Source: Aureispira sp. CCB-QB1
Lineage (GTDB): Bacteria; Bacteroidota; Bacteroidia; Chitinophagales; Saprospiraceae
Length of the DNA stretch: 64,000 bases
Assembly (NCBI RefSeq): GCF_000724545.1
Contig: NZ_JHBV01000043.1
Coordinates: 186,001 to 250,000 of the forward strand
Direction: 5' to 3'
Positions 14,615 through 37,786 of this stretch are shown here, in pieces. Each line of letters starts with the position of its first letter. Within the stretch, counting starts at the first letter, position 1. Position numbers and translations under genes: made by a program. The notes under the pieces are model-generated. The model did not search any database, was not told where the DNA came from, and saw only the letters and a list, made by a program, of their open reading frames with translations.

Positions 14615-15196
14615 TTACTGTTTAGTGGCAGAAATTTGGTGAATGTAAAAATAGTCGCTAATAACAGGATCAATATATATAGCCTTATTTGTCTGTAAAT
14701 CAATGATAACATTATAGTCGTGATTTTTAAAAAAGGAACTACTAAAAAATCTATGTAAATCCATCCCCAAAAAATCTATTTTTCCAACAAGATGTTGAGC
14801 TTTATACTTTGCTTGAAGTTGTTGATCTTGAAAAATGAAATTGACAATAGAGTTAAACAAAGCAGCATAGCCAATACAATTTGCTTTGCCTGTTTTTAAA
14901 ACGGTATTAGGATTTCTAGAACTTTTTATAGTTGTAAACGAAAGCGTTTTATTCGTAAGGCAGTGAGCTACATAGAGAATATCTTTCAGGGAAATTTTCG
15001 ATGTTTGAGAGGTGTTGATGCATTTGACAACTTCTTGTTGCACTATTTTGATAAATCTTTTATCCTCTAACAAAATAGTGGCTCTCTGATCAATTGCAGA
15101 ATAAGAAAACATCATTATGAACAAACAGGTTCTAAAAAGGAATGTTAGAATGAGTAGCATGCTTACTATCTTGAATCGTCTGTACGAGTTTTTCAT
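14615..15196 (-). CDS. Transglutaminase-like membrane-anchored/exported protein
   Basis: 193 residues; N-terminal hydrophobic segment (MLLILTFLFRTCLFIMMF, about 13-30). The middle carries KTGKANCIGYAALFNSI, the Cys motif of the transglutaminase-like fold, and the C-terminal part has KNHDYNVIIDL...KAIYIDP, matching the His and Asp positions of the usual H-x-W-x-x-V ... D-P pattern. So a Cys-His-Asp triad is visible. Family assignment is inferred from these motifs; the protein is short and may be a peptidase-type rather than cross-linking enzyme. Operon with DJ-1 upstream (6-bp gap) and a membrane protein downstream. Confidence 0.55.
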   Translation of the reverse strand: MKNSYRRFKIVSMLLILTFLFRTCLFIMMFSYSAIDQRATILLEDKRFIKIVQQEVVKCINTSQTSKISLKDILYVAHCLTNKTLSFTTIKSSRNPNTVLKTGKANCIGYAALFNSIVNFIFQDQQLQAKYKAQHLVGKIDFLGMDLHRFFSSSFFKNHDYNVIIDLQTNKAIYIDPVISDYFYIHQISATKQ

Positions 15197-15202
15197 AAGC
15201 CA

Positions 15203-15781
15203 TTATACCTTCCAAATCCCATTCTTAAACAGCTGAAACCATTTTTCAATTGTAGCAAGGTCATATAATTCTAATTGCAAGAATATTTCTTTGGCAAATT
15301 CGATTGGAGCAATCCCATTAGCAGTTATAATATGGCGACTAGAAGTAGCTAGCGCATCAGTATAATTGACAGCACCAGTATATTGAGGAGCAATACTTTG
15401 CAAATAATGAAGGGCATTGCTAGTGTGTTTGATTTGATTGAGAAGACCGAGTTTGCCTAAGTAGGTTGTTGCAGCACAGATAGCAGCAATACTTTTTTTG
15501 TTTTCGACTAAGGATTTGACCAGCGTTTCTATTTCATTATTTTTATTGCGCTCCCATGCACTCCCGCCAGGAAGTACCAATAAATCAACTTCTTGCGGAT
15601 CAATTTGTTCCAATGAAACATTAGGCATCACCTGTAATCCTCCCATAGATGAGACAGCTTGTCCTGTACTTGAGAAATAAATAAGTTCAATCGACTGACT
15701 TTTTTTGATTTCAGGAGAAAGAAAAGCAATTTCCCAGTCTGAAAATCCGTCAAAGAGAAAGATAAATACTTTTTTATGCAT
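15203..15781 (-). CDS. DJ-1/PfpI (ThiJ) family protein
   Basis: 192 residues, one DJ-1/PfpI domain. Glu17 (DWEIAF) and the nucleophile elbow AAICAATTYLGK (Cys102) are the expected catalytic pair; LVLPGG at about 68-73 is also typical. Family members are glyoxalases, deglycases, isonitrile hydratases, peptidases or transcription-linked sensors; the activity here cannot be told. First gene of a likely three-gene minus-strand operon with the transglutaminase-like and membrane proteins. Confidence 0.85.
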   Translation of the reverse strand: MHKKVFIFLFDGFSDWEIAFLSPEIKKSQSIELIYFSSTGQAVSSMGGLQVMPNVSLEQIDPQEVDLLVLPGGSAWERNKNNEIETLVKSLVENKKSIAAICAATTYLGKLGLLNQIKHTSNALHYLQSIAPQYTGAVNYTDALATSSRHIITANGIAPIEFAKEIFLQLELYDLATIEKWFQLFKNGIWKV

Positions 15782-24339: not shown

Positions 24340-25056
24340 CTATTTTTTTGTTGTTTTAGCCTCTTGCTTTAGGCGTTCTTTTCGAGCTTTTTTCTGATCA
24401 TTGTTGCTTTCGTAAATGGTGTAGTTTTCATATTTTGCCTTATTGTTTTCTGCCCAAATATCCTTTCCTATATTACAAACTAAAACCAATTCACGATAAA
24501 GTTCGTTGCCCAATTCAATGCGTTTTTCTACAGAAATGTCTCTATCAGAAACTTTATCTTGTTGGATATGAATGGTATTTTCAAATGCTGCTGCTGCTCT
24601 TTGAACAGCATCTATGTGAGGCTGCCTCAAGCCTGTTTCCGCCAAAAAGTCCAACAGTTTATTAGAAACACGTACAACACGACGCCCACAAAGTAGCAAC
24701 TTAGGATCACTCATATCATTCATTTTGATAGTACCAAACTTTCGGTAATGTCCCGAACGCGTATTGTATTTGCTAGCAACGCGAGTCATAACGGATCGAA
24801 TGGCTGTTTTTAGTTTTTCTTTTGCATCATTTTTCTTGCTAGTAGCTTCCATTTGATTGCCAATCAACTCGTCATCATCTGGCAAATCAGAGAATCTTTT
24901 ACACAATTGCTCAAAGTGCTTGATTTTACTATCAGCATAAGCATAACTTTCAAATTCTTTCTGATCTCGTTTGATATATTGGATGCGTTCTTTGCATTGG
25001 GCATACAAATCTGCATCAGGGAAATTATATTCTCTATTGATACTCTGTTTTTTCAT
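24340..25056 (-). CDS. Hypothetical cytoplasmic helical protein
   Basis: 238 residues, no signal peptide or membrane segment, highly charged with a Lys-rich C-terminus (KKARKERLKQEAKTTKK). Predominantly helical in appearance. The middle contains RSVMTRVASKYNTRSGHYRKFGTIKMNDMSD, and later helices have ELGNELYRELVLVCNIGKDIW. The pattern resembles Bacteroidota proteins of unknown function that occur as several paralogs per genome, but I cannot name the family. It is at the left edge of the STAS/terpene island on the opposite strand. Confidence 0.6.
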   Translation of the reverse strand: MKKQSINREYNFPDADLYAQCKERIQYIKRDQKEFESYAYADSKIKHFEQLCKRFSDLPDDDELIGNQMEATSKKNDAKEKLKTAIRSVMTRVASKYNTRSGHYRKFGTIKMNDMSDPKLLLCGRRVVRVSNKLLDFLAETGLRQPHIDAVQRAAAAFENTIHIQQDKVSDRDISVEKRIELGNELYRELVLVCNIGKDIWAENNKAKYENYTIYESNNDQKKARKERLKQEAKTTKK

Positions 25057-25283
25057 ATTTATAAATAATCTGTTAACATTTTTAGTTAAGTAAAACTAAT
25101 TTTTTTTTACACAAATGTCAAGTTTTGCTTCTTATTTGTTTCTAAATTTTACTCCGATATAATTTTTTTAGCAAAGTTAAGTGTTAAGGTTGTATTTAAT
25201 ATTTTAAATATTTGATATTTTAATTGATTATATCTAATATAATTTATATTTTGATATTGTTATTATTGAAAAATGAAAGGGAT

Positions 25284-25697
25284 ATGAAGGAATACAAAAC
25301 AAGAGCGTTGACAATCAAAGTTCGACCTGATGGAATTATCGAAATGCATACCAATGAGGGTTGGGATCAACCCGATACGGTTGAGATTGCCAAAGAGAAT
25401 ATCGAAATGTTAATTAAAGCAGTAGATAATAAGCCGAGAGCTTTGCTGAGCTATATGCCAAGTACTTATATGAGTAAAGAAGTGTTGGATTGTTATGACA
25501 AAGCAGAAATTGGTGAAGTGGCAAGTGCTATGTTAACGACTTCTTTTGGTGCCAAGGTTATGGGTAATGCTTATTTGAAATTGACAGGAAAAGCGGCTAA
25601 ATCAAGTCAAATTAAAAATCAAGCTCCTGTTAGAATTTTTAGCAAAAAAGAAGATGCTGTCGTTTGGCTTTTGAGCCAAATAGCCAAGCATCAATAG
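25284..25697 (+). CDS. STAS/SpoIIAA-like small protein, paralog 1 of 7
   Basis: 137 residues from ATG 25284 (MKEYKTRALTIKVRPDGI); a longer in-frame start at 25224 would add a hydrophobic, AT-encoded extension absent from all paralogs. The family pattern is an N-terminal strand K-x-(R/K)ALTI-x-VRPD-(G/D)I-(V/I)E, a helix with IAKENIEMLIKAVD, a Y-(L/M)SKEVL segment, the core FG(S/A)KVxGNxxLKLTGK, and a C-terminal P-V-R-I-F-x-K-x-x-x-A-x-x-WLL. This fits Bacteroidota proteins with a STAS/SEC14-type fold (my inference). Such domains bind proteins or hydrophobic ligands. No catalytic residue pattern is seen. Confidence 0.8.
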   Translation: MKEYKTRALTIKVRPDGIIEMHTNEGWDQPDTVEIAKENIEMLIKAVDNKPRALLSYMPSTYMSKEVLDCYDKAEIGEVASAMLTTSFGAKVMGNAYLKLTGKAAKSSQIKNQAPVRIFSKKEDAVVWLLSQIAKHQ

Positions 25698-25898
25698 ATT
25701 TTTTGGCGACAAATTGTCTTGCTTATTTTTGGTGCAGGTGGTTAATTAATAAATTAAATACCTTGCTCCAATAAATAATATGGATTTCGTATGTCTAAAA
25801 TTAAAAAATATATTAATTTCGCACTCTTTAATTCAACCCCCCTCAATCAAAAGCCTTCTAATACGAAATTAATTTACATTTATTAAGATTAGATAACC

Positions 25899-26309
25899 AT
25901 GAAATTAACAACACGAGCATTGACAATTATTGTTCGCCCTGATGGAATTGTAGAGATTTTAAACAATGAAAACTGGAATGACGCAGACACAATAGAAATT
26001 GCTCAAGAAAATATTGCAATGTTAAAAAAAGCAGTAGATGGACAACCAAGAGCTATGTTGAGTCACATGCCAAGTACATACATGTCAAAAGAGGTATTGG
26101 AGTGTTACGAAAATGCTGAGATAGGAGAAATAGCTAGCGCTTTGTTAACAACTTCCTTTGGATCAAAAGTAGTCGGAAATTTGTTTTTAAAATTGACAGG
26201 TAAAGCTGCTACGAAAAGCGTAGAAGGCAAGGCTCCAGTAAAGATATTTACAAAAAAAGAGGATGCTGAAGCATGGTTGCTAGAACAAATAGCAAACCAT
26301 ACAAATTGA
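25899..26309 (+). CDS. STAS/SpoIIAA-like small protein, paralog 2 of 7
   Basis: 136 residues, very close to paralog 1: RALTIIVRPDGIVEI, IAQENIAMLKKAVDGQPRAMLSHMPSTYMSKEVLECY, TTSFGSKVVGNLFLKLTGK, APVKIFTKKEDAEAWLLEQIA. The 201-bp gap from paralog 1 has its own AT-rich leader and no terminator hairpin I can see, so the two may be cotranscribed or separately expressed. Confidence 0.8.
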   Translation: MKLTTRALTIIVRPDGIVEILNNENWNDADTIEIAQENIAMLKKAVDGQPRAMLSHMPSTYMSKEVLECYENAEIGEIASALLTTSFGSKVVGNLFLKLTGKAATKSVEGKAPVKIFTKKEDAEAWLLEQIANHTN

Positions 26310-26408
26310 TGTAATTCAAAACGATAGAAGTTGAAGGATAGCAGCAAGGTGTATGGTTGATAGATCGTAGTTCTGTTTCACTGATTTGGCATTTGATTTA
26401 TAAGAAAT

Positions 26409-26429
26409 AAGCTTATTTTAATTGTCAAT
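26409..26429 (+). promoter_or_regulatory. Shared upstream 21-bp element before paralog 3
   Basis: The 21 bp containing AGCTTATTTTAATTGTCAA are identical to 26957-26977, upstream of paralog 4. The distance to the start codon is 18 bp here and 24 bp there. Could be part of a promoter, a leader element or a duplication remnant. Confidence 0.5.
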
Positions 26430-26447
26430 TTAGCTAAAAGAAGAAAA

Positions 26448-26861
26448 ATGGAATACAAAACAAAATCTATCACAATTAAGGTTCGGCCAGATGATATTGT
26501 AGAAGTGACCAATAACGAAGAGTGGGAAAATATAGATACAATTGAAACCGCTACTGAAAATGCCAAGGTGCTAAAAAAAGCAGTAAATGGAAAAAAGAGA
26601 GGTATCTTGAGCCATATGCCAGATACGTATGTTGGAAAAGAAGTGCTGGAATGTTATATCAAGGCAGAAATAGGAGAAGTCGCAACTGCTTTAATGACTC
26701 GGTCTTTTGCTTCTAAAGTAGTTGGAAACATTTATTTGAAATTAACAGGAAAAAAGAAAAATGCAGAACAGGAAAGTGACAAACCTCCTGTCAAAATATT
26801 TACCAAACGAGAACTAGCGGAAGCATGGTTATTGGAGCAAATCGCTCTCTATTCAAAATAA
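26448..26861 (+). CDS. STAS/SpoIIAA-like small protein, paralog 3 of 7
   Basis: 137 residues. Differs from paralogs 1-2 in the helix (ETATENAKVLKKAVNGKKRGILSHMPDTYVGKEVLECY) but keeps the fold-core FASKVVGNIYLKLTGK and PPVKIFTKRELAEAWLLEQIA. Most like paralog 4, with which it shares a 21-bp upstream element, suggesting that the two arose by duplication after the family split. Confidence 0.8.
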   Translation: MEYKTKSITIKVRPDDIVEVTNNEEWENIDTIETATENAKVLKKAVNGKKRGILSHMPDTYVGKEVLECYIKAEIGEVATALMTRSFASKVVGNIYLKLTGKKKNAEQESDKPPVKIFTKRELAEAWLLEQIALYSK

Positions 26862-26956
26862 AGGGTTGAAGAGTAAGCCTTATCTTTGAAAAATTGATAT
26901 AGGAATACTTTTTATTAAATCACAATTTTATTATTTGAGCTTTTTTGTCGAAAAAA

Positions 26957-26977
26957 AAGCTTATTTTAATTGTCAAT
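26957..26977 (+). promoter_or_regulatory. Shared upstream 21-bp element before paralog 4
   Basis: Identical to 26409-26429; the leaders differ to the right of the element. Confidence 0.5.
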
Positions 26978-27001
26978 GTTTAACCCCAAAAACAGAGCGA
27001 T

Positions 27002-27412
27002 ATGGAATTTAAAACTAAATCAATGACTATTGTAGTCCGACCAGATGACATTGTAGAAGTAATCAATAATGAATATTGGGACAAGCCTGATACAATTGAA
27101 ACGGCTACTGAAAATGCTAAAGCTTTGAAAAAAGCTGTGGACAAGAAGCAAAGAGGCATATTAAGACATCTGCCTGATCATTATATAGGAAAAGAGGTCT
27201 TGGAATGTTATATCAATGGAGAGATAGATGAAGTGGCTACAGCACTATTGATTACATCGTATGGATCAAAAGTAGTCGGTAATCTGTATTTAAAACTGAT
27301 AAAAAAATATTCTGAGTCTAATGATAAGCAAGCGACATTTTTAGTAGATATTTTCACTGAAAAAGAAGCTGCTGAAAAATGGTTACTCAATGAAATTGCT
27401 AAACGCAAGTAA
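27002..27412 (+). CDS. STAS/SpoIIAA-like small protein, paralog 4 of 7 (most divergent)
   Basis: 136 residues. Keeps VRPDDIVEVINNEYW, ETATENAKALKKAVDKKQRGILRHLPDHYIGKEVLECY and YGSKVVGNLYLKL, but the LTGK segment became LIKKYSESNDKQATFLVDIFTEKE and the usual T/S-SFGSK is TSYGSK. The most diverged copy of the set. A bidirectional terminator follows. Confidence 0.8.
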   Translation: MEFKTKSMTIVVRPDDIVEVINNEYWDKPDTIETATENAKALKKAVDKKQRGILRHLPDHYIGKEVLECYINGEIDEVATALLITSYGSKVVGNLYLKLIKKYSESNDKQATFLVDIFTEKEAAEKWLLNEIAKRK

Positions 27413-27434
27413 TTTTACTTTGACGATAAAAAAC

Positions 27435-27467
27435 AAAAGCCATTTCCAATCTTTGGAAATGGCTTTT
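27435..27467. terminator. Bidirectional terminator between paralog 4 and terpene synthase A
   Basis: Perfect 13-bp stem AAAAGCCATTTCC/GGAAATGGCTTTT, 7-nt loop, A/T tracts on both sides, between convergent genes. Confidence 0.85.
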
Positions 27468-27485
27468 TGTATGAAAAAGATTCGA

Positions 27486-28556
27486 TTATGATGCTCTTTG
27501 GTTAATTTGTTCAGACGAATACTTCATGTCTTCTAAAATATGCTGGTGGTGGCGATATCTATTGGTTACAAATTGCCAATGATAAGTAGCGGATAGAATA
27601 GAATTAAGCCCATCGGCAAATTGCAAAACGGTTACCTTTTCTTCTACTGTTAAGCCCTTAATATCGGTACGAATTTGTTTGATCATCTTCTTAAATTCGG
27701 CGTGGCAATTATTAACCAAATCAATGGATTTTTGAATTGCTTTATCTAAGGTTTTTGTTTGTTTAAGCACCCCAAAACTATTCACTAAATTGAACTGGCT
27801 ATGGCTTTCCTTAGGATAAGAAAATATATCATTTGATAATCCTCCAATATCTGCACATAAGTCAATAGCGGTTTGCAAGCTAGGTACTTTCTCTAGAAGA
27901 TCGTGATTTAAATACCTGCCCGTGCAATATTCAATTAAATAAATGGCAACATACATCCCCGAAAAGTTTCTTCTTAATAGAATATATTCTTCTGTCGATT
28001 CGTAGGCATCTGGTTTTAATTGATCTCTCAAATGTTCAAACAAAAGCCAAGATAATTTTTTGAAAAAAGTAGGTTCGCAACTTTGAAATATTTTGTTTCG
28101 AACCCATTGTAATGCAGTGCAAACTGTTTTTATCTCATTGCTAGTTAGTTGGTTATAATAAATGCTGTTTATTTTTCCTGTTTGCCAGATATACATCAAC
28201 TCAGACAAAGCAGGTTTGTCTTCCTGTTGGTTCTTTTCTATATCTTCTCCAAATAAATCATCAATGTAATACAGCAAATCATATAGAATATTAACAATAA
28301 CGATTCTGTACTTTCCAGATTTTGGATATAAAAACGAGGTCATTGTTGTATGGGCTGCATAGGATTGGTCAATTTGGATATTTAGTTCTTTGGATAAACG
28401 TGAAGTTGCCAATAAAATGCTCTCCATTGCTTCATGATGTTGGGGTCTTAGTTCTGAAATACTGAGCTGTTGAGAGTTAAAAGTGGTTGTGGTTCGTAGT
28501 GTGAAATGATTTGAAAAAAAGTCGAAATTTTTAGTGGTTGTATTTCTTTCTTTCAT
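27486..28556 (-). CDS. Class I terpene synthase A
   Basis: 356 residues, all-alpha class I terpene cyclase. The two metal-binding motifs are present: Asp-rich YYIDDLFGED (DD at 99-100, DDxxxE type) and the NSE triad SNDIFSYPKE (242-250), followed by HSQFNLVN. These bind the three Mg ions and the pyrophosphate of a prenyl diphosphate; farnesyl diphosphate is the usual bacterial substrate, but product and chain length cannot be read from sequence. No signal peptide or membrane segment. It shares the MKERN start and most motif surroundings with synthase B (33.7 kb), clearly a duplicate. Unusual in that the gene is surrounded by STAS-like paralogs. Confidence 0.85.
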   Translation of the reverse strand: MKERNTTTKNFDFFSNHFTLRTTTTFNSQQLSISELRPQHHEAMESILLATSRLSKELNIQIDQSYAAHTTMTSFLYPKSGKYRIVIVNILYDLLYYIDDLFGEDIEKNQQEDKPALSELMYIWQTGKINSIYYNQLTSNEIKTVCTALQWVRNKIFQSCEPTFFKKLSWLLFEHLRDQLKPDAYESTEEYILLRRNFSGMYVAIYLIEYCTGRYLNHDLLEKVPSLQTAIDLCADIGGLSNDIFSYPKESHSQFNLVNSFGVLKQTKTLDKAIQKSIDLVNNCHAEFKKMIKQIRTDIKGLTVEEKVTVLQFADGLNSILSATYHWQFVTNRYRHHQHILEDMKYSSEQINQRAS

Positions 28557-29437
28557 AGTGTGTGGTTTCTTTTAAAAGGGATAAATAAATGGCATTGTGA
28601 GGTTCCCTAATTTGCTTATTTATAGAAGCCTAATTCTTTGTTAGATGCTGCATAGTTTTGGTTTATTGTTGGTTCTGAATTATTTTATGCAGTTAACAGT
28701 TTTGTTCAGTCAATGCAAGGCTTCGCCAGTCTTCGCAAAACGTCAATAAGAGTATTACAAAGGAGGAACAGCACAAGCTTTTAAAAATGAAATTGCAAAA
28801 AATAGAGGCTTCTTACCCTTAGATATTAAGATTAGATTGTGTTAATAAATTTTGTAAGAAAGTGTCAACTGGTACGTGTACTCCTTAATAGAGTGAGTGG
28901 TATATTCGCTATACAGTATTGAAGGGAATAATTTGTGGGCGAAACTACTTTTAAAAGTAAGTATGTCGTTTTACTATGTTGTTTACAAATATAAACAAAA
29001 TAATCAAATGTTTTAATTAATATAAAATTAATTTTAATAAATTATATGTGTCAATTTGTAACGGCTTTTAATGAGCTGCTAATATAAATTAATTTCTTTT
29101 TTTTATTAGTATCTAGATTGGTTTCTTAAAAATATATTGTACTTTAATTCTTGATATTTATTATAAATAAGTATTAGAATTGAATTATACGAGAGGATAT
29201 TGGAATTTTTGACCAAAATAAGTAAATACATATAAATAAAGAACCCTATATGGTCTTGTTAAGGTGTAGTTTACATATATTTATTGTACAGTTAAAAAAT
29301 TAATTTATTTTTGGAGTAAAAAAAAGATTCTCAAATCTCTCTTGTACTTATATTTTATAACATACTTAATAATTGATGTTATTGGAGGATTTCCCCTTGG
29401 CATTATATTCAATAGATAATTATTAATTACAAAAAAA
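28557..29437. other. 881-bp intergenic region upstream of synthase A
   Basis: AT-rich, without a supportable gene, between divergent synthase A and paralog 5. It holds a block (28762-28900) homologous to a block upstream of synthase B. The part right of 28975 is extremely AT-rich. Confidence 0.6.
28762..28900 (-). repeat. Upstream element shared by both terpene synthase genes, copy A
   Basis: Aligns with 34138-34272: GGAGG(A/G)ACAG(C/T)ACAA at one end, a shared GATATTAA, AATTTTGTAAGAAAGT, CAA-(C/T)-TGGTACG, and the hairpin-like (A/G)CTCC-loop-GAG(T/C) with G(A/C)GTG at the other end. It lies about 205-345 bp upstream of the synthase A start. Confidence 0.65.
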
Positions 29438-29854
29438 ATGGAGTTCAAAACAAGAGCCTTGACGATTACAGTTCGACCAGATGACATTGTAGACATTGTG
29501 CCAAATGAAGATTGGGTGGAGCCCGATACGATGGAAATCGCCAAAGAAAATGTCGCTGCCATGAAAAAAGCAGTAGATGGAAAACCTAGGGGGTTGCTTA
29601 GTCGCACACCAAGTACGTATCTAAGCAAAGAGGTAATGAACTATTATAGTGAAGCAGAAGTAGGAGAAGTGGCTACTGTTATATTGACCAATTCGTTTGG
29701 ATCAAAAGTAGTCGGAAACCTTTTCTTAAAACTAACAGGAAAAAGCAGAGGAGATGCTCCTATACGTATTTTTTCGGCAAGCAACAAAGAAGAAGGGATT
29801 GCTTGGTTATTAGAGCATATTAATAAAGCTAAAAAACAGGCTAAAAGGGGCTAA
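29438..29854 (+). CDS. STAS/SpoIIAA-like small protein, paralog 5 of 7
   Basis: 138 residues (MEFKTRALTITVRPDDIV). Close to paralogs 6 and 7: NEDWVEPDTMEIAKENVAAMKKAVDGKPRGLLSRTPSTYLSKEVMNYY, NSFGSKVVGNLFLKLTGKSRGDAPIRIF. C-terminus Lys-rich. The first of three copies that lie between the two biosynthetic blocks, transcribed away from synthase A and toward the P450. Confidence 0.8.
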   Translation: MEFKTRALTITVRPDDIVDIVPNEDWVEPDTMEIAKENVAAMKKAVDGKPRGLLSRTPSTYLSKEVMNYYSEAEVGEVATVILTNSFGSKVVGNLFLKLTGKSRGDAPIRIFSASNKEEGIAWLLEHINKAKKQAKRG

Positions 29855-29982
29855 AATAATAGTTTTTAGTTATATTTCTTTTTTATGAATTTATGTTTTC
29901 ATATATTTAGATATACTGTTGAGTTTACTTAGAATTATAAAACAACATAAAAGTATAATAAAGAACCTTAAACATAAAGATT

Positions 29983-30390
29983 ATGGAATACAGAACTAAA
30001 GCACTAATTATCAAGGTTAGACCAGATGATATTGTTGAGATTATCCCTGATAAGAACTGGGTAGAACCTGATACCTTAGAAATTGCCAAAGAGAACGTGG
30101 CAGCAATAAGAAAAGCAGTAGATGGAAAACCCAGAGGGCTGTTGAGCGAAAACCCCAATACTTATCTTAGTAGAGAAGTTATGAACTACTACAATGAGGC
30201 GTATGTAGGAGAAGTGGCTACAGCAATGTTAAGCACTTCTTTTGGGTCAAAAATAGTAGGCAATCTATTTTTGAAGTTAACAGGCAAAAGTAGAGGAGAT
30301 GCACCTGTTCGTATTTTTGCAATGAGCGATCGAAAAGCAGCAATTGAGTTCTTGTTAGATGAAATTGCCAAAGCCAAAAAACGAAAATGA
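29983..30390 (+). CDS. STAS/SpoIIAA-like small protein, paralog 6 of 7
   Basis: 135 residues (MEYRTKALIIKVRPDDIVEI). Most similar to paralogs 5 and 7: WVEPDTLEIAKENVAAIRKAVDGKPRGLLS, NTYLSREVMNYYNEA, TSFGSKIVGNLFLKLTGKSRGDAPVRIF. The short leaders of 6 and 7 also resemble each other just before the ATG (CTTAAACATAAAGATT and CTTTAAATATAGAAACT). Confidence 0.8.
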   Translation: MEYRTKALIIKVRPDDIVEIIPDKNWVEPDTLEIAKENVAAIRKAVDGKPRGLLSENPNTYLSREVMNYYNEAYVGEVATAMLSTSFGSKIVGNLFLKLTGKSRGDAPVRIFAMSDRKAAIEFLLDEIAKAKKRK

Positions 30391-30504
30391 TAAAATTAAG
30401 AAAAATATAAAAATACTCCTATATATTTTATGTTTAATTGTTATAATAATGTTATATTTATTAGGCTTAATATGTGATTGTAACAAACTTTAAATATAGA
30501 AACT

Positions 30505-30927
30505 ATGGAATACAGGACTAGAGCACTAATCATCAAGGTTCGACCCGACGATATTGTTGAAATATTGCCTAACAAAGAATGGACAGAGCCTGATACATTA
30601 GAAATTGCACAAGAAAATGTGGCTGCTATGAGAAAAGCGGTAGATGGCAAAGTGAGGGGATTGTTAAGTAATACGGCAAATACTTATCTTAGTAAAGAAG
30701 TTCTAAAATGTTATTCTGAAGCAGAAATAGGAGAAGTCGCAACAGCAATGTTAACCACTTCTTTTGGTTCAAAGATTGTCGGAAACCTTTTTTTGAAAAT
30801 AACTGGTAAATCCAAGTTGACAGATGGCAAAAGAGGACAAGCTCCTGTCAAAATATTTGATGAAAAAAAACGAGACGAGGCAATCAAATGGTTGCTAGAA
30901 TGTATCGAAAAAAAGAAAAATGGATAA
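30505..30927 (+). CDS. STAS/SpoIIAA-like small protein, paralog 7 of 7
   Basis: 140 residues; a five-residue insertion (SKLTDGKRGQ) separates the core from APVKIF. Otherwise WTEPDTLEIAQENVAAMRKAVDGKVRGLLS and TSFGSKIVGNLFLKITGK. The last copy, converging on the P450 gene with a strong bidirectional terminator between them. Confidence 0.8.
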   Translation: MEYRTRALIIKVRPDDIVEILPNKEWTEPDTLEIAQENVAAMRKAVDGKVRGLLSNTANTYLSKEVLKCYSEAEIGEVATAMLTTSFGSKIVGNLFLKITGKSKLTDGKRGQAPVKIFDEKKRDEAIKWLLECIEKKKNG

Positions 30928-30947
30928 AATATTACATCAGAGAAATA

Positions 30948-30984
30948 AAAAAACTATCTATTGAATTTCAGTAGATAGTTTTTT
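30948..30984. terminator. Bidirectional terminator between paralog 7 and P450
   Basis: 13-bp stem AAAAAACTATCTA/TAGATAGTTTTTT, 11-nt loop, at the end of two convergent genes. Confidence 0.8.
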
Positions 30985-30997
30985 TATGCCTATTCTA

Positions 30998-32359
30998 TTA
31001 GCTAGCTGGATTTCTTTTTTGAACTCGAACCTTAATACCATTCGTTGGACTTAGAGTAAGCAAAGGTTTAAAACCTATGTTTTGTCCTGGCGATAAGACA
31101 AATTTGTACCTCCGAATAAACATGGCTAAAATGAATTGCATTTCCATAATAGCAAAATTTTTCCCAATACAAATTCTTGGCCCTCCTCCAAAAGGTAAAT
31201 AAGAAAAAGGAACCTGTTCTTTTTTATTTTCTGGAGTGAAACGCTCAGGGTCAAAACATTCAGGATCTTTCCAGTACTTAGGATTATGATGTAGACCATA
31301 TACAAATGCTGCAATGTCTTCTCCTTTTTTGATTTTGATACCCGAAAACTCGTCATCTTCTACGGGTTCTCGGTCAATAAGCCAGACAACGGGATACATT
31401 CGCATTGTTTCTTCTAGGACTTGTAGTGGATAAGTCAATGAGCGAATACTTTCGATGGAAGGTTCTTCATCTCCCAATATTTCTGTGACTGATTGCAGCA
31501 CTTTTTCTTCAATTCCAGGGTGTTTGGCTAGCAAATAGAAGAGCCAAGCCATTGTAACAGCAGATGTTTTGTTGCCTGCAACAATCAAAATAATAGATTC
31601 ATCTAGCAACTGTTTATTCGTCATCTTAGAACCATCTTCATACTCGGTATCCAACAACATACCTAGCAAATCATCTTTTGATTCGCCAGATTTTTTTCGT
31701 TCTTCGATGAAATCTAAGATAAATTTATCTCGAATATTTTTTTGTTTGACAATATGCTTATAAGCGCCATTGAGATGATACCAAGGTTTTAGAAATGGTT
31801 GTTTGGCAACAGCGACAATGTATTCATTTGCTTTGGCAATGCTATCATCAATAACATCAATTTTTTCATTGTCAAACTCTTGCCCGAACAAGCTTTTGGA
31901 AACTACTTTTGATGCCAAGTAAGTCATTTCTTTTTCGAGATCAATTTCTTGGTTTGTTTCTGCATACACGTCCAAGATATTATCCATATATTGATTGATT
32001 TCATCAAGCATAATTTTAGAAATGCCAACTAATTTTTTTTTGTGAAAACCAGCTTGGATAGCTCTGCGTTGTTTCAACCAATATTTTCCGTCAGATGTAA
32101 AAAGACCATCTCCAATTTGATCTCTTACAAAAGTTCTAACTAAAGAGGTTTTGATATAGTTAGAATTATTCTTTTGTAAAAAATACCGAATCAATTCAGC
32201 GTCATCGGTTAGGGTAAGTTTGTTAGGAAGTTTGATAAGACCATCATTCTGGTCTAATATTTCTTTAAAAAAAAGGATCAAGTTGCGATTCATACTAGGA
32301 AGCTTGCGTAAAAAAGCAAGCAATCCCATTTTAGGAACATTAACTTCAGGGTTCTCCAT
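30998..32359 (-). CDS. Cytochrome P450
   Basis: 453 residues, soluble form. All family marks are present: C-helix WLKQRR (W94), I-helix AGNKTSA (261-267), ExxR (E317-R320 in LEETMR), PERF (about 370) and the haem loop FGGGPRICIG with Cys397. The I-helix acid that normally precedes the conserved Thr (AG-x-D/E-T) is Lys264 here, read directly as codon AAA on the minus strand. Redox partners are not in the window. It follows synthase B on the same strand after 225 bp, so it is a good candidate to oxidise the terpene, but a hairpin at 32498 lies between them. Confidence 0.92.
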   Translation of the reverse strand: MENPEVNVPKMGLLAFLRKLPSMNRNLILFFKEILDQNDGLIKLPNKLTLTDDAELIRYFLQKNNSNYIKTSLVRTFVRDQIGDGLFTSDGKYWLKQRRAIQAGFHKKKLVGISKIMLDEINQYMDNILDVYAETNQEIDLEKEMTYLASKVVSKSLFGQEFDNEKIDVIDDSIAKANEYIVAVAKQPFLKPWYHLNGAYKHIVKQKNIRDKFILDFIEERKKSGESKDDLLGMLLDTEYEDGSKMTNKQLLDESIILIVAGNKTSAVTMAWLFYLLAKHPGIEEKVLQSVTEILGDEEPSIESIRSLTYPLQVLEETMRMYPVVWLIDREPVEDDEFSGIKIKKGEDIAAFVYGLHHNPKYWKDPECFDPERFTPENKKEQVPFSYLPFGGGPRICIGKNFAIMEMQFILAMFIRRYKFVLSPGQNIGFKPLLTLSPTNGIKVRVQKRNPAS

Positions 32360-32497
32360 TATGAAAATATATTAAGTGTTTTGAATCAATAATCCACTAA
32401 CTTTATAGTTGTGTAATACTAAAAAATTAGTGACTGTTTAGGTATAGACATTGATAGTCAGACCAATAAAAATTTGAGGAAATAACAATAGAATTAA

Positions 32498-32529
32498 ATG
32501 ACCTTAGTCTACTAAAAGACTAAGGTCAT
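32498..32529 (-). terminator. Hairpin after synthase B, before P450
   Basis: Perfect 13-bp stem ATGACCTTAGTCT/AGACTAAGGTCAT, 6-nt loop, about 55 bp beyond the synthase B stop, with only a weak T tract (TTTAATT) on the minus strand. May terminate fully or partly. Confidence 0.6.
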
Positions 32530-32584
32530 ACTTTGTATTAAGATAATAAATTTCATTATCATTCAGTCGATAATTCCATTTACT

Positions 32585-33715
32585 TTATGCATGTTTCTTG
32601 ATTAGAGGAATCAAATTCTTAACTTTCGAATTGAATGTATAAGTAGATTCGTGTTTCAAGTCTTCCAAAATGTGGTTGTCATGTCTGAAACGCTGAGTAA
32701 CAAATTGCCAGTGGTAGCTTGCTGATAAAATATCTTTTAGACCCTCTGCAAATTTTAACACAGTAATTTGTTGCTCTTCAGATAAAACCTTAACCTCTGT
32801 TTGAAGTTGCTCTATGGCTTGGTCAAATTCAAAGTGACAGTCGTTAACTAGGTCGATAGAATTTTGAACAGCTTCTTTTAATGTCATTTCTGGATGAGCA
32901 ACTAAATAACTGTTGACCAAATTAAACTTGCTGTGACTTTCTTTGGGATAGGAGAAAATATCGTTTGATAAACCTCCAATATCAGCACATGCATCAATTG
33001 CTTTTTGTAGACTAGGTACTTTTTCTAAAGTACCTGCGGCAAGGTATCTATTGTTGCAGTATTCTACAAGAAACGCAACAGGGTACATTCCACCAAAACG
33101 TCTTCTTAGCAAAATATATTCGTCTACAGTGCTAAAGTCTTTAGGCTCCAACTGATCTTTCAAATGCTCAAAAAGCAGACCAGATAGTTTTTTGAAAAAT
33201 GCAGGCTCAGAGCTCTGAAATAACTTAGTTCTAATCCAAAGTAAAGCGTTATAGATGTTCTTAATTTTTGGGTTTTTAATAGCATCTAAAAAGCCATCTT
33301 GGATTTTTCCAGTTTTCCAAATTTGCATCATTGCCATCAATGAAGGACGCTCGTCGTCTTCTCCAATTTCTATGTCCTCTCCAAAAAGATCATCGATGTA
33401 ATATAGAAAATCGTAGAGAACATTGGCAATGACCAATCTATACCTACCTGAGTTGGGGTATAAAAATGCAGTCATACTTGTATGAGCAGAATAGACCTCT
33501 TCTAGTTGAATATCTAACTCTTTGGTCAATTTAGAGGTAGCTTTCAAAATATCTTGAATAGCTTCGTGATAGTGTATTTCTAGTGTAGAAATGGTTAGCT
33601 GCTTAGAGTTGAAGGGGCTAACAGGGCATGCGGATAAATTGTCTTGAAAATCGTTAGCGATTTGTGATACGTTGGGTTTGTTACCTTCGTTTGCTTCTTG
33701 ATTTCTTTCTTTCAT
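32585..33715 (-). CDS. Class I terpene synthase B
   Basis: 376 residues. Asp-rich motif YYIDDLFGED (DD at 108-109) and NSE triad SNDIFSYPKE (251-259), then HSKFNLVNS. Overall very similar to synthase A, with differences concentrated in the N-terminal tail, the region after the Asp motif and the C-terminus (extra SKVKNLIPLIKKHA). Both enzymes start MKERN. Likely substrate is farnesyl or geranyl diphosphate. Its upstream block (34138-34272) resembles that of synthase A, so the duplication included the regulatory region. Confidence 0.86.
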   Translation of the reverse strand: MKERNQEANEGNKPNVSQIANDFQDNLSACPVSPFNSKQLTISTLEIHYHEAIQDILKATSKLTKELDIQLEEVYSAHTSMTAFLYPNSGRYRLVIANVLYDFLYYIDDLFGEDIEIGEDDERPSLMAMMQIWKTGKIQDGFLDAIKNPKIKNIYNALLWIRTKLFQSSEPAFFKKLSGLLFEHLKDQLEPKDFSTVDEYILLRRRFGGMYPVAFLVEYCNNRYLAAGTLEKVPSLQKAIDACADIGGLSNDIFSYPKESHSKFNLVNSYLVAHPEMTLKEAVQNSIDLVNDCHFEFDQAIEQLQTEVKVLSEEQQITVLKFAEGLKDILSASYHWQFVTQRFRHDNHILEDLKHESTYTFNSKVKNLIPLIKKHA

Positions 33716-34604: not shown

Positions 34605-35999
34605 ATGATAAAATTTATTCTTAATAATGAATTAATAGAAACTGACTTACCATCGGGGATGGTATTGGCAGATTATATACGATATAAAGAATGTCTAACA
34701 GGAACCAAGCTCGGATGTCGTGAAGGTGATTGTGGCGCTTGTACCGTTTTAGTTGGAACAAGAGTTGGATCAGAGGTAATTTACGAATCGGTTACTTCTT
34801 GCTTGATGCCATTAGGTAATGCGCAAAGCAAGCATATTGTTACCGTAGAAGGTGTTAATATTATAAGATTAAATAAAATACAAGCAGCAATAGCGGATGA
34901 AGGAGGAACTCAATGTGGTTTCTGTACCCCTGGTTTTATCATGTCTTTATGCGGTTTTGCCTTGTCCAAAGAGCCTAAAAATCAAGAAAAAGGAATTTTG
35001 GCGATAGCTGGTAATATCTGCCGATGCACGGGCTACAAATCAATTGAGCGAGCGCTTGAACAGATTGTGCAAGAATTGCAAGAACTAGATACCAACAATA
35101 GGATAAATTGGTTGGTTGAAAATGGTTTTTTGCCCAATTATTTTGTCAATATTGAAACGAAACTCAAGGAATGTGTGCTTCAAGAAACTGATTTGGGGCA
35201 TGATGCACAAAAAGTTTTCGTAGGGGGAGGGACAGATTTGTATGTACAGCGCCCCACCGAAATGTTGCCCGCAGAGATAGTTCATACAACGCAACGACAA
35301 GATTTAAAGGGGATTTGGAAGGCAAATGGGCGATGTCATATTGGTGCCTCTACCTCTACCGAAGCACTCAAGCAGTCGCCACTTATACAAAGTTTAAGCC
35401 CTAATAGTGATCATTTTTTTAATTTAATATCTTCATTGCAAATTCGGAATATGGCAACCGTAGCAGGAAACCTTGTTAATGCTTCTCCTATTGGTGATTT
35501 GGCGGTGTTCTTGTTAGCGTTGAATAGTAATATCATATTAAATGACAATGGGGCATTGAGAGAAATTCCACTAAAGAACTTTTTTAAGGGCTATAAAACA
35601 CTGGATAAAAAAGAAACAGAGTTTGTTCAAGAAATCAATTTTGATCTGCCAACAGAGAAGCATTATTTTAATTTTGAAAAAGTTTGTAAGCGTACTTATT
35701 TGGATATTGCTTCTGTTAATACTGCGATAAACATAGAGTGCAATTTGCACGGTGAAATTACAAAAGCAAGCCTAGCAGCAGGAGGTGTTGCACCTGTTCC
35801 TAAGTACTTAACCAAGACAAGTGCTTACTTAACAGGACAAACAGTTTCAGAAGCTCTTTTTAAAAATTCTTTGGACATAGCACAAGAAGAGATCAGCCCA
35901 ATTTCCGATGTTAGAGGTTCTGAAGCATACAAGCGTTTGTTGTTGCGTCAATTGATGAAAGCACATTATCAAGTCTTATTTCCTGAATTCGTAGTGTAA
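34605..35999 (+). CDS. xdhA: Xanthine dehydrogenase small subunit (2Fe-2S and FAD)
   Basis: 464 residues. N-terminal plant-type ferredoxin domain: Cys38, Cys43, Cys46 and Cys66 (GCREGDCGACTV ... TSCLMP). Second 2Fe-2S domain: Cys104, Cys107, Cys139, Cys141 (CGFCTPG and CRCTGY). FAD domain from about 170, with VGGGTDLYVQRP near 200 and IRNMATVAGNLVNASPIGD, ending in the CO-dehydrogenase flavoprotein C-terminal domain. Passes electrons from XdhB to NAD. Its partner gene lies 3.7 kb away (39749), separated by two unrelated surface-protein genes and three terminators, so it is expressed separately. Confidence 0.93.
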   Translation: MIKFILNNELIETDLPSGMVLADYIRYKECLTGTKLGCREGDCGACTVLVGTRVGSEVIYESVTSCLMPLGNAQSKHIVTVEGVNIIRLNKIQAAIADEGGTQCGFCTPGFIMSLCGFALSKEPKNQEKGILAIAGNICRCTGYKSIERALEQIVQELQELDTNNRINWLVENGFLPNYFVNIETKLKECVLQETDLGHDAQKVFVGGGTDLYVQRPTEMLPAEIVHTTQRQDLKGIWKANGRCHIGASTSTEALKQSPLIQSLSPNSDHFFNLISSLQIRNMATVAGNLVNASPIGDLAVFLLALNSNIILNDNGALREIPLKNFFKGYKTLDKKETEFVQEINFDLPTEKHYFNFEKVCKRTYLDIASVNTAINIECNLHGEITKASLAAGGVAPVPKYLTKTSAYLTGQTVSEALFKNSLDIAQEEISPISDVRGSEAYKRLLLRQLMKAHYQVLFPEFVV

Positions 36000-36211: not shown

Positions 36212-37786
36212 ATGAAAAGTTTAAAATTATGCTTAGGCTCAATGTTGCTGTGCGCTGCAATTAGTCTTTATGGGCAAACCCCAACGTATTATGGTTCTGG
36301 AGCAGGAACGGCAGGTTCTTATAATTCATTTTTTGGTCAACGTGCTGGTACTGCTACTACAGCTAGTTATAATTCAGCTGTTGGAGCTTTTAGTTTGTAT
36401 ACCAATACCACGGGGCAGAGAAATGTTGCCATGGGCTACAGTTCTTTGAGAAAGAATACAACAGGAAGTTACAATATTGGGGTTGGTATGAGTTCCTTAT
36501 ACAATAACACCATAGGAAATTATAATGTAGCGGTAGGTTATTATACCTTAAACAAAAATAGCAATGGAATTCATAATGTAGGGATTGGATATTATACCTT
36601 GTATAGTAATACTGAAGGGATTGACAACGTAGCAACGGGAAGCAACGCTTTGTTTTATAATACAACAGGAAATTCGAATGTGGCTACAGGAAGTCATTCG
36701 TTACAAGAAAATACAACGGGCAGCGAAAATGTAGCAACGGGATATCGTGCTATGTTTTATAATACGACAGGTTATAAAAATACAGCTATCGGTACTAGGG
36801 CTCTAGAAGATAATACTTTAGGTTATAATAATGTTGGTGTTGGAGCTGATGCTTTGAAAAATAACGCAGGAGGATATCGAAATGTGGCCATAGGTAATAC
36901 TGCTTTAGGCTATAACACAACGGGGATAGGCAATACTGCTATAGGATATAGCGCTGGTCCAGGATCAGCAGGTAGTGGTTATTTCTATTCTTCTGGTTTA
37001 GGAGCTTATGCTATCCCTACTGCTTCGTATCAAGTAAGGGTAGGACATACTGGAATTACTAGCATAGGCGGTGCCCAAAATTGGACGAATTTATCAGATG
37101 GGCGTTTCAAAGAAGATGTAAAGGAAAATGTTGTTGGTCTGGACTTTATCAAAGCTTTGCGCCCTGTGAGTTATTATGTTAACAAAGAGGCTGTCAATCA
37201 ATTTTTAGACGTAGAGTTAGAAGAGGCTGCTATTAACAATACAAAGCAATATCAAACAGGATTTATTGCTCAAGAAGTAGAAGCAACAGCCAAAGAGTTG
37301 GGCTTTGAATATTTTGGAGGAGTCGATGCTCCTAAAAATGGAAATGATTATTATGGATTGCGGTACGCAGAATTTGTCGTGCCATTGGTAAAATCTGTAC
37401 AAGAATTAAGTGCTCAAAATGATGAATTAAAAGCATTGATACAGGAGCAACAAGCTCAAATTGATGCTTTGTTGAAAGCCAATGCACCAATAACTTTAGA
37501 TTCTAAAACGCTACCTACTTTGTCTAAAGCAAAATTATACCAAAATACGCCCAATCCATTTTCAAAAGAAACGCAAATTAAACTATTTGTCCCTGAAGAA
37601 GTACAGCAGGCAATAATTCAAGTTTGTACGATAGATGGAAAACAATTGTTTTTGAAAGAGGTGTCTGACCGCAATGAAACGTTGGTGACCATTGAAACTA
37701 ATAATCTATCAGCAGGAATTTATCTGTACACATTGATTGTTGATAATGAGATTGTTACTACGAAAAAAATGGTTGTAACAGAATAA
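36212..37786 (+). CDS. T9SS surface protein with head repeats and peptidase S74 domain, copy 1
   Basis: 524 residues. Signal peptide (to about 21, SLYGQ). Residues about 30-250: roughly ten 23-24-residue repeats of the N-T-x-G-x-x-N-x-A-(V/I/T)G-x-x-(A/S)L type, like trimeric-adhesin or phage-fibre stalks. Residues about 288-400: peptidase S74 (intramolecular chaperone) domain with LSDGRFKED (Ser295, Lys300 dyad) and GFIAQEVEA. A coiled coil follows (about 396-423), then a T9SS type A sorting tail (LYQNTPNPFSKETQIKLF ... GIYLYTLIVDN). So a trimeric, self-assembling surface fibre exported by T9SS is predicted. Own promoter and terminator. Confidence 0.85.
   Translation: MKSLKLCLGSMLLCAAISLYGQTPTYYGSGAGTAGSYNSFFGQRAGTATTASYNSAVGAFSLYTNTTGQRNVAMGYSSLRKNTTGSYNIGVGMSSLYNNTIGNYNVAVGYYTLNKNSNGIHNVGIGYYTLYSNTEGIDNVATGSNALFYNTTGNSNVATGSHSLQENTTGSENVATGYRAMFYNTTGYKNTAIGTRALEDNTLGYNNVGVGADALKNNAGGYRNVAIGNTALGYNTTGIGNTAIGYSAGPGSAGSGYFYSSGLGAYAIPTASYQVRVGHTGITSIGGAQNWTNLSDGRFKEDVKENVVGLDFIKALRPVSYYVNKEAVNQFLDVELEEAAINNTKQYQTGFIAQEVEATAKELGFEYFGGVDAPKNGNDYYGLRYAEFVVPLVKSVQELSAQNDELKALIQEQQAQIDALLKANAPITLDSKTLPTLSKAKLYQNTPNPFSKETQIKLFVPEEVQQAIIQVCTIDGKQLFLKEVSDRNETLVTIETNNLSAGIYLYTLIVDNEIVTTKKMVVTE

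Follow-up and report, generated by a model that had tools for sequence, protein, structure and literature searches.

Bacterial sesquiterpene clusters of the albaflavenone and pentalenene type combine a class I terpene synthase (TS) with a cytochrome P450, and to our knowledge arrays of STAS-like genes are no part of them. STAS-like folds are able to bind ligands. SiaC (DUF1987), a diguanylate cyclase partner, is related to STAS proteins and, according to PMC8457831, modulates a signalling protein adjacent to it. Our literature searches found no paper joining SpoIIAA-like or STAS domain proteins with a terpene synthase, none on STAS domains with HAMP in Bacteroidetes, and none under the name of Pfam family DUF7793 (PF25056).

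We looked into an island in the window, by which we mean the 64,000-nucleotide stretch of the Aureispira sp. CCB-QB1 genome that was analyzed. The ORF list confirmed the seven paralogous ORFs of 135 to 140 amino acids (aa) that a preliminary description had reported. All seven lie on the + strand, and the - strand carries one P450 and two terpene synthases, which are intact and of class I. Copies 1 (25284..25697; its ATG at 25284 is internal to a longer frame that opens with TTG at 25224) and 2 (25899..26309; ortholog at 14798-15208 of locus L119) form subgroup Q, and copies 3 (26448..26861) and 4 (27002..27412) form subgroup R. Copy 4 converges with TS A (27486..28556, -), and a terminator-like hairpin lies between them (27435..27467; z of -5.0 on the + strand and -6.2 on the - strand for the folded segment 27425-27480). 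Beyond the divergent intergenic region (28557..29437) follow the copies of subgroup P, copy 5 (29438..29854; relatives at L119 17343 and L120 3916), copy 6 (29983..30390), and copy 7 (30505..30927; relatives at L119 16218 and L120 3107). A long hairpin (30945..30987; z of -9.6 for 30940-30992) separates copy 7 from the convergent P450 (30998..32359, -; motifs FGGGPRICIG and ETMR), next to TS B (32585..33715, -). Copies 2 to 7 are 52 to 69% identical to copy 1. One border of the island, common to four species, is a 238-aa ORF (24340..25056, -) that is ∼90% identical in L119 and L120 and has no Pfam match at an E value of ≤0.01; the other is a xanthine-dehydrogenase-type FAD/FeS subunit (34605..35999, +), found in the window, in L119, and in genome G540, the L120 contig beginning before the corresponding position. 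An assembly artifact was rejected because another genome of this species (G127, two contigs) contains the seven matching copies and both synthases in the same order. A sigma-70 promoter scan was uninformative (41 found versus 46.4 expected), and seven intergenic stretches yielded no DUF7793 relics at an E value of ≤0.1.

Genome-wide, PF19086 retrieved two synthases, both in the island (65.4 and 73.2 bits, for a cut-off of 23.7), and a profile of the seven copies retrieved 13 copies, seven of them in the island. Both synthases carry the metal-binding motifs DDLFGED and NDIFSYPKE. Their matches to NF041168 and NF041167 were far below cut-off, and we discarded the idea of encapsulin cargo.

Judged from their sequences, the seven copies are divergent relatives of DUF7793, whose members are predicted to fold in the SpoIIAA/STAS manner. 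All seven score below the curated PF25056 cut-off (16.9 to 23.4 versus 26 bits), and we therefore call them DUF7793-like. Five of the six other copies of the same genome pass this cut-off, and the seven-copy profile matched all six with E values of 1e-23 to 7e-49. Alignment A2 contains 61 family members, with some row starts placed by hand at an in-frame ATG (alignment A4 keeps 47 of these rows); at an E value of ≤0.01, PF25056 matched all 61 and the SpoIIAA-like family PF11964 matched 27. The predicted structure of copy 7 (pLDDT 89.8) has its strands and helices in the order b b b a b a b a b a, and that of another family member, L107 (pLDDT 91.8), has the STAS-type order with one extra short helix. 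The L107 model matched 2q3l (SpoIIAA-like, E value of 2.3e-5), 4xs5 (STAS, 6.4e-5), and 1tid (SpoIIAA, 5.5e-4), with a TM score of ∼0.6, as well as SpoIIAA 1h4z and RsbS 6jhk. The STAS/SpoIIAA-like fold that had been proposed is supported for the family, the model of copy 7 itself giving no PDB match at an E value of ≤1e-3 and a weak best match, SiaC (0.05).

A PDB search with the seven-copy profile alone gave no credible match, and the family profile hit the solved chain 3bl4 (E value of 3.7e-16). Although 3bl4 is the nearest solved sequence relative of L107 (33% identity), the two superpose poorly (TM score of 0.35 to 0.39, root mean square deviation near 15 Å); may a domain swap be the reason? 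Position 63, the phospho-acceptor position at the start of helix 2, is a serine in five of the seven island copies and a glycine in copies 3 and 4, and serine plus threonine amount to 43% of the 61 members, so a phosphorylatable residue is not conserved there. The STAS families PF01740 and PF13466 did not match any island copy; a classical STAS_2 identity was dismissed, as the two PF13466 matches of the genome lie outside the island. A comparison of the 61 members with PADLOC defence genes gave six families with one member each (best E value of 0.002), and this assignment was also rejected.

We then evaluated the age of the copies with a tree of 60 copies from the genus (G127 left out) and five others as the outgroup, taken from 108 family ORFs. 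The tree supports the groups 1-2, 3-4, and 5-7, as previously described. Since orthologs of these subgroups occur in other species, the duplications are not recent, and the dN/dS values of the copies (0.04 to 0.16 where computable) correspond to purifying selection. By these phylogenetic criteria, the island copies are old paralogs. A topology uniting all 16 island copies of four species in one clade was weakly rejected (p-AU of 0.037), and the same topology minus one odd copy was not (p-AU of 0.18).

Both gene families occur together in four species of the Aureispira group (five of the nine genomes of the genus), and DUF7793 adjoins a synthase in all five genomes. The linked copies number 7, 5, 2, and 2 in the four species and lie between common border genes, and the TS-P450-TS order is found in three species. 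Gene order indicates that the linkage between TS and DUF7793 is inherited within the genus. The family comprises 8 to 28 copies at dispersed loci in the four species and in Saprospira grandis, and two or none in other members of the genus.

Elsewhere, the recurrent neighbors of the family are signalling genes. We found a gene with a HAMP-like N terminus directly downstream in 12 of 20 DUF7793 regions of a phylum sample (6 of 13 genera besides this one) and did not find it in the other eight, among which L118, without a family match in our scripts, was counted as a miss. The 12 genes comprise two histidine kinases, two hybrid kinases, and eight AraC-type regulators, the latter from two genera of one family and checked with Pfam in L099 only. 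A profile of the four kinase N termini recovered all eight AraC-type N termini (E values of 7e-13 to 4e-6). Four further genes, none of which had gone into this profile, also adjoin DUF7793, one of them encoding a HAMP-like/STAS protein in S. grandis. In four genomes (G000, G540, G541, and G545), another set of copies (1, 1, 4, and 1) is flanked by cheW and cheY in the vicinity of a globin-PAS-HAMP receptor. In the window's genome, this che operon is followed by CheR, STAS, SpoIIE-type, and RsbW-like genes; G127 has no che-operon copy. The HAMP-like profile matched neither the window, which thus shows no adjacent HAMP-like regulator, nor the Aureispira che receptors at an E value of ≤1e-3. Partner-switch-type signalling, one of the earlier suggestions, draws its support from the family's neighbors elsewhere; among the island genes, we recognized no regulator gene, no RsbW-type kinase, and no PP2C phosphatase.

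On balance, we favor the view that the products of the seven genes are cytosolic adaptors in signalling, with a STAS fold and of the DUF7793 group, one array of which is stably linked to a terpene locus. In many members of the group, the gene for the small STAS-like protein immediately precedes that for a cytoplasmic regulator; the small protein would dock on the HAMP-like or STAS part of that regulator and switch its output, be it a kinase, an AraC-type activator, or a chemotaxis receptor, in a mode like that of partner-switch proteins minus the invariant phospho-serine. One array sits at the terpene locus and has kept that place as four species diverged, with copies being acquired, lost, and relocated in the meantime. 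We think it most likely that the copies work chiefly in trans, on signalling proteins; that they tune the terpene genes beside them is less likely. Weighing against the adaptor view are the island without a recognized regulator gene, the scores of the seven copies under the DUF7793 cut-off, the weak structural match of copy 7, the poor superposition on 3bl4, the variable phospho-acceptor position, the eight phylum regions where no HAMP-like gene was found, the che receptors that the profile did not match, and the G127 genome with no che-operon copy. A functional coupling of the array to the terpene genes is possible; because the family sits in signalling operons elsewhere, a direct part in terpene chemistry can only be conjectured.

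The linkage may well be that of a passenger, a reading to which we give a little under an even chance: the array and the terpene genes would be accessory genes brought together once, without function, in a variable spot of an ancestor, and this single event accounts for all four species. In five genomes, 69 of 87 copies and 15 of 20 arrays (two or more copies) lie away from a synthase, as do just 6 of 13 copies in the window's genome. Among 16 other TS-bearing genomes, 13 are devoid of DUF7793 and three have it, never beside the synthase. DUF7793 flanks only 3 of 15 TS loci in a GTDB scan in which some flanks were short. In the phylum sample, this genome set aside, none of the 4 genomes with a synthase is among the 19 with DUF7793, an outcome that is also expected by chance. 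The preliminary description had named paralogs far from any terpene gene in relatives as counter-evidence to its reading, and this is in large part what we found; the linkage to TS nevertheless persists inside the genus and recurs once, more weakly, in S. grandis. There, a DUF7793 copy lies within ∼0.1 kb of a very divergent synthase (rough chance of 6.5e-4, computed after the fact), which speaks against a mere passenger; yet this copy is frameshifted, and the synthase is ∼31% identical to TS B. Also at odds with a passenger, the copies were rearranged but retained in the island: they all lie beyond TS A in L119, all between the P450 and TS A in L120, and at both places in the window.

Cis-linked regulation, in which the copies of the island would pass on or titrate a signal setting the expression of TS A, TS B, and the P450, appears unlikely to us, even though adjacency holds in each of the five genomes of the genus that have both families. 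Part of the TS A/copy 5 intergenic region is 72.9% identical over 166 nucleotides to the region upstream of TS B, and therefore one regulator could act on both. However, no DNA-binding or kinase domain was recognized in the island genes, the 238-aa border ORF included, arrays and enzymes are transcribed convergently with hairpins between them, and G544, of the same genus, has a synthase without DUF7793. The latter synthase belongs to another clade (L123) in a tree of 21 rows, from which L131 (in two frames), L133, L073, and additional G355 and G422 copies were omitted. More speculative still, and in our estimate improbable, is a bank of STAS-fold adaptors that is cis-linked to the pathway and adjusts terpenoid output to signals. 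Its diverged copies, differing in partner or ligand preference, would vie for a single HAMP- or STAS-type regulator encoded at another place in the genome, and terpenoid production would thereby be coupled to the sensory network that, via the che-operon copy, steers chemotaxis. Any terpene-specific role is disfavored because most copies and arrays lie away from synthases, most TS genomes lack the family, and hairpins part the arrays from the enzymes. Least of all do we expect the copies to carry, sense, or scaffold terpenoids, as first surmised from adjacency, or to act on prenyl diphosphates in a SEC14-like way: nothing was found in favor of such binding beyond adjacency and the SEC14 domains 3peg and 3pg7 low in the structural list of a family member (E values of 0.07 to 0.08), no SEC14/CRAL-TRIO Pfam match exists in the island copies or the 61 members, and the many copies away from synthases and those in chemotaxis and kinase operons speak against it.

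The adaptor reading gives an uncharacterized family a testable function: in Bacteroidota, its STAS-fold proteins would be partners to HAMP-like regulators, to chemotaxis receptors, and to STAS relays. The analysis also documents a conserved terpene locus and a strong expansion of DUF7793 in several Aureispira-group species and S. grandis. If the copies do control the terpene locus, the output of a natural product would depend on a family of sensory adaptors.

Compared with described systems, the island copies belong by profile to the same sequence family as DUF7793, under its curated cut-off. With SpoIIAA/RsbS-type antagonists, they share size and, as the matches of the L107 model to 1tid, 1h4z, and 6jhk suggest, probably the fold class, but they lack both the classical STAS Pfam matches and the conserved helix-2 phospho-serine. 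SiaC is the top, weak structural match of copy 7, but no cyclase or SiaA/B-like gene was recognized in the island. The island resembles albaflavenone- and pentalenene-type clusters in its intact TS motifs and in its P450, whose nearest NCBIfam models are albaflavenone monooxygenase and pentalenene oxygenase, although the P450 scores far below the cut-offs of both.

The ORF listing reproduced the positions and strands given in the preliminary description of the island: the seven DUF7793-like copies are on the forward strand, and terpene synthase (TS) A, TS B, and the P450 are on the reverse strand. Each copy matches DUF7793 (PF25056, SpoIIAA/STAS-type fold group) at 16.9 to 23.4 bits, below the Pfam cutoff of 26; 13 DUF7793-like copies occur in the whole genome, distributed over five loci, and the island accounts for seven. 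Both class I terpene synthases (PF19086) of the genome lie in the island. TS A and TS B each contain the DDLFGED and NDIFSYPKE motifs, and the P450 contains FGGGPRICIG. A second genome of the species (G127), in two contigs, has the same island gene set. Two long hairpins lie between the members of the convergent pairs copy 4/TS A (z, -5.0/-6.2) and copy 7/P450 (z, -9.6) of the window, and the arrays and the enzymes are therefore probably transcribed separately. The product of the gene at 36212 to 37786 combines a Peptidase_S74 (endosialidase-type chaperone) domain with a Por secretion tail.

We then looked into the distribution of the island in nine genomes of the genus. DUF7793-like genes were found in six, TS in six, and both in five, covering four species (two genomes belong to one species), and TS adjoins DUF7793 in all five. 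G543 has DUF7793 without TS, G544 has TS without DUF7793, and neither was found in G021 and G542. The gene order is TSb-P450-3 copies-TSa-4 copies in the window, TSb-P450-TSa-5 copies in L119 (TS locus of G541), and TSb-P450-2 copies-TSa in L120 (TS locus of G545); G540 has one TS, which clusters with TS A (support, 96/97 in the TS tree), and 2 copies, with no P450 between the borders. A 238-aa ORF with no Pfam match (24340 to 25056), ∼90% identical in L119 and L120, borders the island in four species. Beyond it lie histidine biosynthesis genes in the window and G540 and a different gene in L120, and the L119 stretch stops at the ORF. The second border is a xanthine-dehydrogenase-type gene (xdh; FAD/FeS subunit, 34605 to 35999, forward strand) in the window, L119, and G540; the L120 contig starts shortly before TS B. 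Several species of the genus have inherited the linkage of TS and DUF7793, and the earlier observation of STAS-like paralogs among terpene genes stands.

Identity to the L119 and L120 counterparts is 79 to 80% for TS B and 70 to 75% for TS A. Stretches upstream of TS A and of TS B are related to each other (512 nt at 67.6% in L119 and 166 nt at 72.9% in the window), and in L120 part of the xdh N terminus survives as a remnant 5' of TS A (4814 to 4906). From the related upstream DNA and this remnant, we infer that TS A and TS B stem from duplication of a segment that comprised the end of xdh, the adjoining intergenic DNA, and the synthase gene.

Evaluation of DUF7793 neighbors elsewhere in the phylum revealed, in 12 of 20 fetched regions (6/13 by genus), a DUF7793 gene immediately followed on its own strand by a gene with a HAMP-like N-terminal segment; no such gene was seen next to DUF7793 in the other eight. 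Eight of the downstream genes are of the AraC type (Pfam-checked in L099 alone), seven in one genus and the eighth in a second genus of the same family, and the others encode histidine kinases (L107, L108) or hybrid kinases (L114, L116). The Pfam HAMP model matches two of five regulators scanned, L107 under and L116 over the cutoff. A profile of the four kinase N termini retrieved all eight AraC-type N termini (E, 7e-13 to 4e-6), and the 40 matches listed for the reverse, AraC-type profile include L107, L108, L114, and a truncated copy of the L116 gene (E, 1e-5) but not L116 itself. Four matches outside the profile input also adjoin DUF7793 (L094, L095, L159, and L068 from Saprospira grandis, which combines a HAMP-like segment with a STAS domain). 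The set searched was drawn mostly from regions retrieved because they carry DUF7793 or TS and is thus not a genome-wide control. DUF7793 copies also lie between cheW and cheY, beside a globin-PAS-HAMP receptor gene, in this genome (one), G540 (one), G541 (four), and G545 (one), with a Pfam check of the receptor or CheW in each. In this genome (L053, 129 to 13249, contig C5), the operon comprises the globin-PAS-HAMP receptor, CheW, DUF7793-like, CheY, CheB, CheA, and CheR genes. Genes for a STAS protein, a SpoIIE-type phosphatase, and an RsbW-like kinase come next, along with a SulP-type gene recognized by sequence look only. G127 lacks this C5 copy (12 versus 13 copies).

In a tree of 65 rows, each island subgroup (copies 1-2, 3-4, and 5-7) includes sequences of other species of the genus, and the che-operon copies place near subgroups 1-4. 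Among the copies compared, synonymous divergence is about 1 at the low end and saturated at the high end, and dN/dS, where computable, is 0.04 to 0.16, with the usual doubt at such large distances. A single clade of all 16 island copies was weakly rejected (P = 0.037) and, without L119 15440, was not rejected (P = 0.18). Because of these relatives in other species, the high synonymous divergence, and the clade tests, the island is seen to consist of diverged members kept for long, some possibly of separate origin. At a common site in four species (L055, L135, L143, and L151), 3, 3, 2, and 3 DUF7793-like genes, respectively, are flanked by glycosyltransferase-like and cytidylate-kinase-like genes (named by sequence look).

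The array may be a passenger beside the terpene genes, with no functional tie to them, or the island copies may act in cis and set the expression of the linked terpene genes. In favor of a specific link, the adjacency persists in the genus despite rearrangement. Also in favor, the single TS found in S. grandis (G057) lies ∼0.1 kb from a DUF7793 pair (L049, 10364 to 11657); against a specific link, the copy nearer the TS is frameshifted, and this TS, with about 31% identity to TS B, has a very long branch in the TS tree. The rough chance of adjacency for one randomly placed gene is 1e-4 in this genome, 1.8e-4 in G540, and 6.5e-4 in S. grandis, figures that are post hoc and come partly from nonindependent genus genomes. 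In five genomes, 15 of 20 arrays of at least two copies lie away from any TS, and 18 of 87 copies are at TS loci (7/13 in this genome, 2/8 in G540, 5/25 in G541, 2/13 in G545, and 2/28 in S. grandis). DUF7793 occurs in the flanks, several of them short, of 3/15 TS loci from GTDB genomes, and in 3 of 16 further TS-bearing genomes (the 16 seemingly include G544, as G548), each time away from TS. Among 395 genomes of the phylum, PF19086 is found in 5, PF25056 in 20, and both in this genome only, numbers so small that chance alone would also give zero overlap; among 150 genomes of the family, the seven-copy profile matches 3, TS B matches 5, and both match three. Carriage of terpenoids by the DUF7793-like copies is the least likely reading. 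Six DUF7793-like genes stand in tandem in G541 (L145, 1430 to 4510), on a contig where the TS search was negative, and two TS-bearing Flavobacteriaceae genomes have small DUF7793 relatives in neighboring pairs or triplets, distant from TS (L161, L164, L166).

We consider the island proteins best read as STAS-fold signaling adaptors, a reading that we hold at somewhat better than even. Models of copy 7 (pLDDT, 89.8) and of the L107 member (pLDDT, 91.8) both have the STAS strand-helix order. The L107 model matches SpoIIAA-like and STAS structures (E ≤ 1e-3; TM, about 0.6), and the matches of copy 7 are weak (SiaC, E of 0.05; an anti-sigma antagonist, E of 0.5). The solved relative of the family profile, which spans nearly the whole chain, is the uncharacterized protein 3bl4, on which the L107 model superposes poorly (TM, 0.35 to 0.39) despite its being the nearest solved sequence relative. 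DUF7793 pairs a known fold with an uncharacterized family, and what is unusual is its expansion and genomic setting. Unlike in classical antagonists, the phospho-serine place is not conserved in the family; therefore, if DUF7793 proteins are partner switches, they probably act by binding and not by invariant phosphorylation.
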